IMG/VR virus record: IMGVR_UViG_3300013094_000006
Coordinates: 1 to 41,797 of that record
Strand: one strand, 5' to 3'
Source: a virus
Length of the DNA: 41,797 bases
The notes below the pieces were generated by a model. That model worked only from the letters and a program-made list of their open reading frames with translations. It did no database searches and had not been told where the DNA came from. The stretch's first letter is position 1; each line of letters starts with the position of its first letter. Both the position numbers and the translations under genes were made by a program. Shown piece by piece: positions 38,039 to 41,797 of this stretch.

Positions 38039-38067
38039 ACCTTACGCCTGACGTAAGGCGATTGCAA
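38039..38067 (-). promoter_or_regulatory. Promoter TTGCAA-17-TAAGGT for the minus early operon
   Basis: On the minus strand -35 TTGCAA (38062-38067) and -10 TAAGGT (38039-38044), 17 apart. The -10 box ends 6 bases before the ATG at 38032, implying a leaderless transcript, common in Actinobacteria. Confidence 0.6.
38041..38057. promoter_or_regulatory. Operator-like inverted repeat CTTACG-N5-CGTAAG
   Basis: Lies between the -35 and -10 boxes of the minus promoter, in the divergent regulator gap. The same half-sites fuse into CTTACGTAAG at 38751-38760 in the attP region. Likely bound by the XRE-type or excisionase-like regulator. Confidence 0.65.
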
Positions 38068-38658: not shown

Positions 38659-38681
38659 TCGCGGCCAATTCGCGGCCAATT
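38659..38681 (+). repeat. Arm-type repeat P (two tandem TCGCGGCCAAT units)
   Basis: Two TCGCGGCCAAT units in tandem plus a T. An identical block lies at 38842-38864 in the same orientation, 183 bases away. Probable binding sites of the integrase N-terminal arm domain. Confidence 0.75.
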
Positions 38682-38748
38682 CCCACCGGCGTGAGAGTAG
38701 CAGATAGGTTGCGTAAGGTGTTGGATTCCTGCTCAGGGGCACAATCTC

Positions 38749-38762
38749 GTCTTACGTAAGAC
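38749..38762. promoter_or_regulatory. Perfect palindrome GTCTTACGTAAGAC in attP
   Basis: 14-bp dyad with the CTTACG/CGTAAG half-sites of the 38041-38057 operator. Could be an excisionase or repressor site that links integration to the genetic switch. Confidence 0.6.
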
Positions 38763-38768
38763 CACGAG

Positions 38769-38810
38769 GCACGTTACGAGTGCGTCGCTCTGCCACTGAG
38801 CTACCCAGGC
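38769..38810 (-). other. 5' half of a tRNA gene (Thr-CGT-like), probable attP core
   Basis: Minus strand reads GCCTGGG (acceptor 1-7), TA, D-arm GCTC-AGTGGCA-GAGC with G18G19 and A14/A21, G26, then an anticodon loop CTCGTAA (U33, anticodon CGU, A37). After this the sequence departs from a tRNA: no T-arm (GGTTCGA) follows, so it is not a functional tRNA. Homology ending at the anticodon loop suggests strand exchange there. Confidence 0.72.
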
Positions 38811-38841
38811 ATTACTGGGGTTTGAGCCCCTTGCCTCCTCG

Positions 38842-38864
38842 TCGCGGCCAATTCGCGGCCAATT
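38842..38864 (+). repeat. Arm-type repeat P' (two tandem TCGCGGCCAAT units)
   Basis: Exact copy of 38659-38681, ending 18 bases before the integrase start codon. Binding of Int here could also repress its own promoter. Confidence 0.75.
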
Positions 38865-38882
38865 TGTGACAGACTGACCCCG

Positions 38883-40043
38883 ATGGGGAAGCGTCAGTAC
38901 GGTAGCGGAAGCCTTGTCGAGAAGCCACCCGGCTCAGGACAGTGGACACTTAGGCTCACGGTCGGCACCGACCTCGTGACGGGCAAGCGCCGGCGCAAGG
39001 ACTTCCGTTTCACGGCGAAGGGGGCCAAGGCCGCTGAGCGTGAGGCCGACAAGATCCGAGTCAGCGTGTGGGAGGAGAAGCCCACGGGCACGAGCGCCAC
39101 GCTCGAGGTGCTCCTCAAAGAATGGCTCCGTCACATCGAAGCTCGAGGGCGAGCGGCCACCACCGTCCGAGAGAACCGGCGCACGGCCAAGACGCTCATC
39201 ATCCCTGCGCTCGGTGACACGAGGATCGGTGACCTCGCGGTGCGCCAGATCGACGCCTTCTACACCGACCTCCTCACGAGGGATCGCCCCCTTGCCGCTT
39301 CCTCCGTGCGCCGTGTCCATGCCGTGCTGAGGGCGGCGCTGAATCAGGGCGTCAAGTGGGGGTGGATCTCTCAGAACCCGGCCAACCTCGCCACGCTCCC
39401 GACCGTCGAGCAGGCTCGCATCGTCCTGCCCTCCCCCGAGGACGTCAGGGCGCTCGCTGAGGCGATGCGAGAGAAAGGGGAGGTCTATGGCATGGCAACG
39501 GTGCTCGCCATCGTCACGGGGGCCAGGAGGGGCGAGCTGTGCGCCTTGCGGTGGTGCGACCTCGAGGACGACATGCTTCTGATCTCCCGTTCGATCTACA
39601 AGGCGGGCGACGAGTTCGGGGTCAAGGCCACCAAGAGCGGGCGAGAGCGGGTCGTGGTCTTGCAGCCGGCGATGCTCAAGCGCCTCGAGCGATGGCGACG
39701 AGAGCGTGACCACGTCGCTGATGCTGCGGGCGTGGTGATCTACGACGACTCATTCATCCTTTCCTCGTGGCCCGACCACTCTCAGCCCATGAATCCCGAC
39801 ACGATCACCGGGACCTTCCGGCGCTGCGCCGTCGCCCTCGGCATCCCCGAGATCCACCTCCACTCCCTGCGGCACCACGCCGCCACTGAGATGCTTGCTG
39901 CGGGCGTGTCGCCTCGGGACGCCGCCGACGTGCTCGGCCATGCCAGCCCGTCCATGACCCTCAACGTCTACAGCCATGCCACGGTGGAGCGGCAGCGGGC
40001 GGCATCGAGGGTGCTCGGAAGGGCTCTTGACAATAGCGAATAA
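38883..40043 (+). CDS. int: Tyrosine integrase with arm-binding domain, 386 aa
   Basis: N-terminal ~60 residues (QYGSGSLVEKPPGSGQWTLRLTVG...GKRRRKDFRF) form an AP2-like arm-binding domain, then a SAM-like core-binding domain (~72-165). Catalytic residues: Arg215 (TGARRGEL), Lys251 (TKSGRER), His327/Arg330 (HSLRHHAAT), His353 (GHAS) and Tyr363. Directly beside attP-like repeats. It should catalyse integration into and, with an excisionase, excision from the host chromosome. No Shine-Dalgarno precedes the ATG. Confidence 0.93.
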   Translation: MGKRQYGSGSLVEKPPGSGQWTLRLTVGTDLVTGKRRRKDFRFTAKGAKAAEREADKIRVSVWEEKPTGTSATLEVLLKEWLRHIEARGRAATTVRENRRTAKTLIIPALGDTRIGDLAVRQIDAFYTDLLTRDRPLAASSVRRVHAVLRAALNQGVKWGWISQNPANLATLPTVEQARIVLPSPEDVRALAEAMREKGEVYGMATVLAIVTGARRGELCALRWCDLEDDMLLISRSIYKAGDEFGVKATKSGRERVVVLQPAMLKRLERWRRERDHVADAAGVVIYDDSFILSSWPDHSQPMNPDTITGTFRRCAVALGIPEIHLHSLRHHAATEMLAAGVSPRDAADVLGHASPSMTLNVYSHATVERQRAASRVLGRALDNSE

Positions 40044-40060: not shown

Positions 40061-40243
40061 ATGACCAATGCGAAACCAGGGCCAGGGCGCCCACCGATCC
40101 CCCGAAAGACCGTGCTGCTGCGGCTGACCCCCGAGATGTTCGAGGAGCTGAAAGCAATAGCAGATCAAGACGACCTGAGCGTGCCCGTCATGGCCCGCAA
40201 CTTCGTGATCCAAGGCGTGCGGAGGCGCAGGCTCGATGGCTGA
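40061..40243 (+). CDS. Ribbon-helix-helix (CopG/Arc-like) protein, 60 aa
   Basis: RKTVLLRLTPEMFEELKAIADQDDLSVPVMARNFVIQGVRRR is a ribbon strand followed by two helices, the RHH DNA-binding pattern. Overlaps the following recombinase by 8 bp. It may regulate, or act as accessory factor for, the second recombinase. Basic Pro-rich N-terminus. Confidence 0.75.
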   Translation: MTNAKPGPGRPPIPRKTVLLRLTPEMFEELKAIADQDDLSVPVMARNFVIQGVRRRRLDG

Positions 40244-41057
40244 CCTCATTGCCGGCGTGCGGCGTGACCAAGAACGTCGAGGCGTGCTCGAGTCGTCGAT
40301 TGAACGCCGTGAGTCCGTGCTCCGCCTGTTCCAGGCGTGGTGCGCACCGAAGAATCTGCTCAAGGCCACTCGCACCGACGTCGAGCGATTCCTCGACTCG
40401 AGGAGCCTCGGTGCCAGCACGAGGGCGACCTACCTCAGCCACCTCCACGCCTTCTACTCGTGGGCGATGATGGAGGATCTGACCAAGGACGACCCGACCG
40501 CCAGAATCGTGCGCCCGAAGGTTCGCCGGCGACTCCCCCGCCCCGCATCCTCATCCGAGCTCTCAGCGGCGCTCGCCAAAGCCACGCCCGTCGAGGCCGC
40601 ATGGATCTCGCTCGCCGCTCTCGAGGGGCTGCGCTGCAAGGAGATTGCCGAGCTTCGAGTCGAGGACGTGCTCATGGAGGACCGGCTGCTTCGAGTGGTC
40701 GGCAAAGGCGACAAGGAGCGCCTCATTCCCTTGCACCCCGACGTGGCTGACGCCCTCGAGGATCTCCCCCTGCCCGCACGGGGGTTCGTGTTCACGAGGT
40801 ACGCCGGCAACCCTTGGGACCCGAAGCGCCTGAGCGAGGCGCTCAACGCTGCGCTCAAGAACCTCGGGGTGAACTCCACCGCCCACCAACTCCGGCATTG
40901 GTTCGGCACGAACGTCTATCAGTCGACCCACGATCTTCGACTGACCCAAGAGATGCTCGGTCACTCCTCGCCGGCGACAACTGCGATCTACACGGCGTTC
41001 GACCGTGAGGATGCGACTCGAGCGGTGTCGGGGTTGACGTTGCGTACGGTGAAGTGA
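40236..41057 (+). CDS. Second tyrosine recombinase, XerC/D-sized, 273 aa
   Basis: No arm-binding domain; starts with a SAM-like core-binding domain (residues ~10-95, SIERRESVLRLFQAWCAPKN...TYLSHLHAFYSWAMM). All catalytic residues present: Arg133 (EGLRCKEI), Lys157/160 (GKGDKERLIPL), His217/Arg220 (HQLRHWFGT), His243 (GHSS) and Tyr252. It could resolve multimers, invert a segment or integrate at a dif-like site. Converges with the small fibre-associated gene. Confidence 0.88.
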   Translation: MADLIAGVRRDQERRGVLESSIERRESVLRLFQAWCAPKNLLKATRTDVERFLDSRSLGASTRATYLSHLHAFYSWAMMEDLTKDDPTARIVRPKVRRRLPRPASSSELSAALAKATPVEAAWISLAALEGLRCKEIAELRVEDVLMEDRLLRVVGKGDKERLIPLHPDVADALEDLPLPARGFVFTRYAGNPWDPKRLSEALNAALKNLGVNSTAHQLRHWFGTNVYQSTHDLRLTQEMLGHSSPATTAIYTAFDREDATRAVSGLTLRTVK

Positions 41058-41251: not shown

Positions 41252-41797
41252 CTACGAGAATCCGAAGAAGTAGTTGCTGGCCACAGCTGTCCAAGTAAAC
41301 GGAGACGACGTTCCTCCCGTTGCCGACCGAACACTTCCGCCAAGGTTGATGATGTTTGATGTCACGCTGGCGCTCTTGAGAACCTGCCAACTTGAGGAAG
41401 TAGAAACAAACAGCACGTACAAGTAATAGATGCCAGTCGTTGGAACCGTGTACGGAGTAAGTGCGCCCGAAATAAAAGAGTTACTTGGGAAACTCGAAAT
41501 AGGCGTCGACTGACTTTGTGAGGTTCCGGCTGCGTTGGCGATGCCAAACACTGCCTGTCCCGACCCAACAGTGTTCGTTCCGAAGTACGAGCCGATGTTG
41601 CTGATGACGGTGCCAGCCCTGAGATAAACGGCTGCGGCAAGGGTCTGGCTTGTTGTCACTGTTGTAGTGGCCACTGTCGACATCGCCGGATCAAACGTCC
41701 AACCAAGCAACCCAACCGCCCTAGCGGGTGACGGGTCCAGTTGGTTGATCGCCACGGCGTCTTGCGCTGCGCTGCCGTTGGCAATGCCGGTGATCTT
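41252..41797 (-). CDS. Tail fibre protein, C-terminal part (same gene as 1-1593)
   Basis: C-terminal ~154 residues of the fibre, beginning at the KITGIANG motif in the terminal repeat and ending at TAG at 41252. The tip is rich in Ser, Thr and aromatic residues (TGIYYLYVLFV) with no Cys, consistent with a compact beta-sandwich receptor-binding head. Bases 41340-41700 are visibly more AT-rich than the rest of the window, suggesting this tip was acquired separately. The internal GTG at 41755 should not be taken as a start, because the frame is open far upstream. Confidence 0.85.
   Translation of the reverse strand, partial: KITGIANGSAAQDAVAINQLDPSPARAVGLLGWTFDPAMSTVATTTVTTSQTLAAAVYLRAGTVISNIGSYFGTNTVGSGQAVFGIANAAGTSQSQSTPISSFPSNSFISGALTPYTVPTTGIYYLYVLFVSTSSSWQVLKSASVTSNIINLGGSVRSATGGTSSPFTWTAVASNYFFGFS
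41714..41797. repeat. Direct terminal repeat, right copy
   Basis: Exact copy of bases 1-84, lying inside the tail fibre gene. Joining the two copies gives one continuous fibre frame, which is direct evidence that the window is a closed unit. Confidence 0.97.

Follow-up and report, generated by a model that had tools for sequence, protein, structure and literature searches.

Introduction

Integration into a tRNA gene is usually held to do no harm, since the gene retains its promoter. This is the case for conventional phages that carry the 3' half of their target: the rebuilt tRNA retains the host promoter, and tRNA and integrase gene point in the same direction. The opposite polarity is known but rare: of the 3919 islands in Table 1 of the Islander survey, 159 have a 5' tDNA fragment and 3760 the conventional 3' half (PMC4383910). 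The survey names crossover at the anticodon as one of two site classes and, in the text searched, does not discuss promoters. In the pTN3-like elements of Thermococcales, too, it is the 5' half of the target tRNA that is used, and the rebuilt tRNA, cut from its own promoter, is described as being expressed from the integrase promoter (PMC8371274; PMC5495485). In these archaeal elements the att site lies within the integrase gene (int), which is split on integration. Finally, in the tRNA-dependent lysogeny of certain actinobacteriophages, attP also lies in a tRNA gene; the host tRNA is lost on integration, and the phage makes up for it with a complete tRNA of its own (PMC10865867).

Here we describe an attachment site in a viral record (IMG/VR IMGVR_UViG_3300013094_000006), analysed over a stretch of 41,797 nucleotides that we call the window. 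With conventional phages the locus shares a tyrosine integrase, an attP beside int and, among its relatives, some of the same target tRNA genes. As in the 5'-fragment islands, the displaced piece is the host 5' half and the complete tRNA has the 5' half of the element. As in pTN3-like elements, the 5' half is used and the rebuilt tRNA is parted from its own promoter. In contrast to the latter, int is kept whole, with attP located outside it, and the candidate promoter points the other way; we rejected a pTN3-like assignment because att is not inside int, the tRNA half lying 72 bp upstream of the int start. Phages with tRNA-dependent lysogeny must likewise make good a lost tRNA function, but they bring a complete separate tRNA, whereas the phage described here brings half a gene and, as we infer, a promoter. 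While the Islander table counts islands, the polarity reported here marks one integrase clade, phages included, and comes with a conserved candidate promoter. To our knowledge, both the clade-wide fixation of the 5'-half polarity and an antisense, synonymously conserved candidate promoter are new.

Results

A tRNA 5' half beside the integrase gene

A first-pass annotation had proposed that 38769-38810 is an attP with the 5' rather than the 3' half of a tRNA gene. Read on the minus strand, 38774-38810 (GCCTGGGTAGCTCAGTGGCAGAGCGACGCACTCGTAA) corresponds to tRNA positions 1-38 and differs at a single base (G26 versus A26) from the tRNA-Thr(CGT) genes of two Acidimicrobiia MAGs (L011 and L019). 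The five bases 38769-38773 lie outside the match, and the proposed extent shrinks accordingly. Identity breaks off sharply at both ends, at tRNA base 1 and immediately past the anticodon loop CTCGTAA, which supports both the polarity and the loop as the crossover site. The best match in 40 shuffled windows did not exceed 23/37. When GTDB contigs were searched with a tRNA-shaped pattern, 18 loci in Acidimicrobiia or actinobacterial MAGs were recovered, all of them tRNA-Thr(CGT); the exact 37-mer was not found in these contigs, nor was a host gene with 37/37 identity. Joining the phage half in silico to the host 3' half yielded a fully paired 75-nt tRNA-Thr(CGT), and no tRNA was formed at the opposite junction.

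Neither of the outcomes that the annotation had named as refuting, a complete tRNA gene here or a host attB with its shared core outside the fragment, was encountered. ARAGORN found no tRNA gene in the whole window, ruling out a complete phage tRNA gene, and the Rfam tRNA model scored 18.4 bits at the phage half, below its gathering score of 29; 38774-38810 thus holds no complete tRNA gene. The half is flanked on both sides by 11-bp repeats (TCGCGGCCAAT, two copies per arm; Table 1). Together, the tRNA match, the paired arm repeats and an integrase gene 72 bp away indicate an intact attP, and 38774-38810 is almost certainly the part of it that carries the tRNA 5' half. Of the features of 5'-fragment islands in Islander, the window has an attP with the 5' portion of a host tRNA and no complete tRNA, and a tyrosine-family integrase; the integrated form, in which one end bears the complete tRNA and the other a displaced 5' fragment lying upstream in like orientation, is seen in relatives. 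The shared sequence also ends at the loop, as expected for an anticodon-loop (symmetric) integrase, and by analogy with such enzymes the crossover region is probably the loop itself, with a 7-bp overlap.

Table 1. Features of the attP region and neighbouring genes in the window
Feature	Position	Strand	Basis
Excisionase-like HTH protein, 79 aa	37793..38032	-	Pfam HTH_17 4e-12; PHROG excisionase 3.2e-08
Repressor-like HTH protein, 87 aa	38157..38420	+	Pfam HTH_3 7.8e-12; PHROG transcriptional repressor 5.5e-09
Whole attP as inferred (arm, core, arm)	38659..38864	.	Repeats, host identity and layout of relatives
Arm-type site, far side, two 11-bp repeats	38659..38681	+	Repeat search
CTCGTAA, anticodon loop and inferred 7-bp crossover (overlap) region	38774..38780	-	Host identity ends there; analogy with anticodon-loop integrases (PMC8371274)
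5' half of tRNA-Thr(CGT), 37 nt, attP core and identity segment	38774..38810	-	36/37 to L011/L019
Arm-type site, int side, two 11-bp direct repeats	38842..38864	+	Repeat search, 100% copy of other arm
Tyrosine integrase, 386 aa, N-terminal SAM-like domain	38883..40043	+	PF00589 E 1.6e-26; PF14659
TACCGT, candidate -10 hexamer of the rebuilt tRNA gene, 88 nt upstream of it and antisense to int codons 6-8	38899..38904	-	No other TANNNT in the 200 nt upstream of the tRNA half

The integrated state in relatives

The annotation had also called for a comparison with the host tRNA-Thr(CGT) gene and both prophage junctions. Host genes were found at 36/37, as described above, and the junctions of the window phage were not: searches recovered neither attB or an empty site nor attL or attR of this phage, nor its exact host. 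Matches to the host flank were too distant for a clean attB alignment; the same search revealed orphan 5' halves and 3'-half copies of one tRNA-Arg gene.

We therefore describe the integrated state from relatives. Among 172 genomes of the family to which the L011 genome belongs, the nearest integrases are 45-49% identical to that of the window. Several are adjacent to a complete tRNA-Ser(GCT) or tRNA-Arg(CCT) gene (L030-L034, L037 and L040), which lies antiparallel with its 5' end towards int, 43-73 bp from the int start. At three further loci (L035, L036 and L038) the tRNA is truncated by the contig edge and again has its 5' half towards int. A second copy of the 5' half, orphaned and ending right past the anticodon loop, is present elsewhere in the genome (G063, G014, G058, G079, G097, G118 and G165). 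In G097 the tRNA on the complete side and the orphan half lie 5.3 kb apart on one contig, which stops 10 bases into the 3' half; in the other relatives they are on separate contigs. Tandem repeats of the arm kind occupy the same place in most integrated relatives, and matching repeats lie about 80-110 bp past the orphan half at the distal junctions. The rebuilt tRNA of integrated relatives thus has element DNA upstream, as had been proposed, and the host upstream region stays with the orphan 5' half at the far junction. The orphan tRNA-Arg halves of G092, G089, G084 and G118 share an upstream sequence, which the DNA upstream of the complete copies does not resemble; we read this common sequence as the probable original host promoter region.

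In five MAGs (G014, G058, G063, G040 and G146) the element-fused copy was the sole tRNA-Ser(GCT) with a 3' half in a pattern search, a count in which a second gene may have been missed because MAGs are fragmentary. Under standard decoding, AGC and AGU are read by tRNA-Ser(GCT) alone, so that the element-fused copy should be expressed.

Some of these genomes hold additional arrangements. G146 has an attP-like copy (L065) as well. The 5.3-kb integrated element of G097 (L081, G097:C28:226500-234021) encodes a 420-aa replication-initiator-like ORF and an integrase of the clade, so carriers of 5' halves include non-phages. At L177 (G092:C45) and L178 (G089:C47), a complete tRNA-Arg(CCT) is followed by one or two extra 5' halves at 2-4 kb spacing, with no integrase matching the query; our reading is that these are tandem or decayed elements.

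The 5' polarity marks one integrase clade

A tree of 65 integrases, 37 of them 3'-facing, places the 5'-facing ones together with that of the window (support 98/93). The group has one 3'-facing member, L039, and L104, also 5'-facing, stands apart from it. Polarity labels require a minimum of 3 changes on the tree, against 11 in shuffles. IMG/VR searches with the integrase alone and with the arm repeat returned no relatives; viral relatives were recovered with an alignment as query. Five of these viral loci (L155, L157, L158/L159, L160 and L162) have attP-like 5' halves facing int, derived from tRNA-Ser(GCT) or a CAT-anticodon tRNA. In other integrases, L161 and L184 have 5' halves facing int too. 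Extending the genome search to the whole class brought in no clade members from outside the first family. Conventional 3'-facing integrases occur at the same target genes, namely tRNA-Thr(CGT) (L046, L049 and L115) and tRNA-Arg(CCT) (L113, L114 and L118), so the evolution of the switch is open to study.

A candidate promoter on the antisense strand of int

The first-pass annotation had expected a minus-strand promoter between 38810 and 38882. A sigma-70 promoter scan found none, 38811-38882 included. Conventional tRNA genes mostly have the host-type -10 element TANNNT 5-16 nt upstream (43/55), versus 0/13 element-side regions (Fisher 1.7e-7). Read by eye, the box lies about 40-55 nt upstream in the L019 and Arg flanks; distance alone is thus no proof, since some host genes of the family have a more distant box. 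The scan and the comparison together led us to reject a promoter within 38811-38882 and with it the expected placement; the best candidate lies just outside, in int.

Inside int, an antisense TANNNT is present in 16 of 16 integrases of the clade, 62-88 nt upstream of the tRNA, a count that does not amount to 16 independent events because the members are related. The hexamer overlies the int residues [YHKQ]-[GA]-[TSI]. Across the 76 conserved columns of the 16 sequences, its synonymous T is the sole third codon base that never varies, the next highest value being 0.73, and T makes up 16% of third bases in conserved columns. The idea had been built on 11 sequences, where this was the only invariant third base among 86 conserved columns; all five viral sequences added later, outside the set that gave rise to it, fit the hexamer. 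L039 and L164, the only two controls with the same motif and without the hexamer, keep the protein motif with GGC instead, and neither has a 5' half facing int. The hexamer of the window is among the weaker forms, and no -35 was evident by eye upstream of the hexamer in the aligned sequences. On this pattern of conservation, int probably hides an antisense promoter for the rebuilt tRNA.

Discussion

The attP anatomy is seen in the window itself, and complete tRNAs with their 5' end facing int, together with orphan 5' halves elsewhere in the genome, are seen in relatives. In all likelihood the window phage integrates as its relatives do, with the same outcome. The adjacent integrase would recombine the attP core with the anticodon loop of a host tRNA-Thr(CGT). 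Since attP carries tRNA positions 1-38, the int-side junction would rebuild a complete tRNA from phage upstream DNA, phage 5' half and host 3' half, and the host gene would be cut from its own promoter, which would be stranded with an orphan 5' half at the other junction. Transcription of the rebuilt tRNA would start from an element promoter whose -10 hexamer is antisense in the start of int (38904-38899), and a leader of about 80 nt would be removed by RNase P. We strongly favour this account as a whole; its promoter step, in which an antisense promoter in int drives the rebuilt gene, we hold to be probable.

The most serious competitor concerns the hexamer, and we consider it rather unlikely: the invariant GGT and the antisense TANNNT might serve int itself, through leaderless translation or a DNA or RNA site in the direction of int, and have nothing to do with the tRNA. 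In several relatives a TANNNT stands 6 nt ahead of the int start, which fits a leaderless int mRNA, and early codons of leaderless genes can bear special constraint. Constraint of this kind is hard to square with the fact that only this one of the early codons is fixed, the next Gly codon, two positions on, varying between GGA, GGT and GGC; that L039 and L164, which lack a 5' half towards int, retain the amino-acid motif with GGC; and that the fixed bases are the three important for an actinobacterial-type -10. It is more improbable still that lysogens tolerate a silent rebuilt tRNA because its codon is read by another one. UGU and UCU anticodons can read the Thr(CGT) and Arg(CCT) codons by wobble, and no canonical promoter adjoins the rebuilt gene; relatives, however, use tRNA-Ser(GCT), the sole reader of AGC and AGU, and the element-fused copy is the sole one with a 3' half in five MAGs.

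The two remaining explanations bear on the tRNA half. That the phage follows tRNA-dependent lysogeny (PMC10865867) is very improbable: it would likewise be an actinobacteriophage with attP in a tRNA gene, yet the window has no tRNA gene to replace a destroyed one, and its 37-nt identity rebuilds a full tRNA in silico, compared with a core of about 10 bp in those phages. Both tRNA genes and pieces of such genes occur in phages, so the half might match by chance or be what is left of a decayed phage tRNA gene, with no role in integration; the chance of this is close to nil given a 36/37 match against at most 23/37 in shuffled windows, the sharp end at the anticodon loop, the paired arm repeats and the same layout in relatives at other tRNA genes.

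Under the preferred account, in which the element supplies the promoter, the tRNA transcript would cross the arm sites and the int start and could thereby dampen int in the lysogen, an effect that we regard as possible but doubtful. As the annotation had suggested, tRNA expression may plausibly be tied to the state of the prophage. We give even chances to the broadest proposal, that the integrase clade takes over host tRNA genes, including the essential tRNA-Ser(GCT), by swapping in an antisense int promoter that would be kept by synonymous-site selection, with transcription of the host tRNA passing over the arm sites and the int start and so tying its supply to the control of the integrase. 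The rule that the gene keeps its own promoter is broken by an entire integrase clade, which exchanges the promoter of the host tRNA that it enters; in relatives this tRNA is essential. If the antisense promoter is real, it explains how elements of this kind get the rebuilt tRNA expressed, offers a sequence signature to find further ones and would provide a case of a synonymous phage codon under selection for the supply of a host tRNA.

Other features of the phage genome

A DNA similarity search against phage records gave no match to the window. Positions 1-84 and 41714-41797 form an 84-bp terminal direct repeat, and a tail-protein-like frame with collagen-like Gly-X-Y repeats continues across the joint, which makes it likely that the record holds the whole unintegrated genome, 41713 bp long; the database classes it as linear. 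The structural genes are consistent with a tailed phage, and the best explanation of the window is a temperate siphophage of an Acidimicrobiia-like actinobacterium. Directly after int and beside tail-fibre-like genes, a second tyrosine recombinase (273 aa, 40236-41057) has a XerC/D-like N-terminal domain and might be a resolvase or invertase. A palindrome (GTCTTACGTAAGAC) is located at 38749-38762 beside the attP core, and a similar pattern, TTACG...CGTAA, lies at 38039-38058 between the excisionase-like and repressor-like genes; the two are possibly a shared operator. Just upstream of the tRNA half, the minus strand has a short hairpin (GGGG-CTCAAA-CCCC, 38814-38829), and hairpins precede the tRNA in L010 and L011 too.
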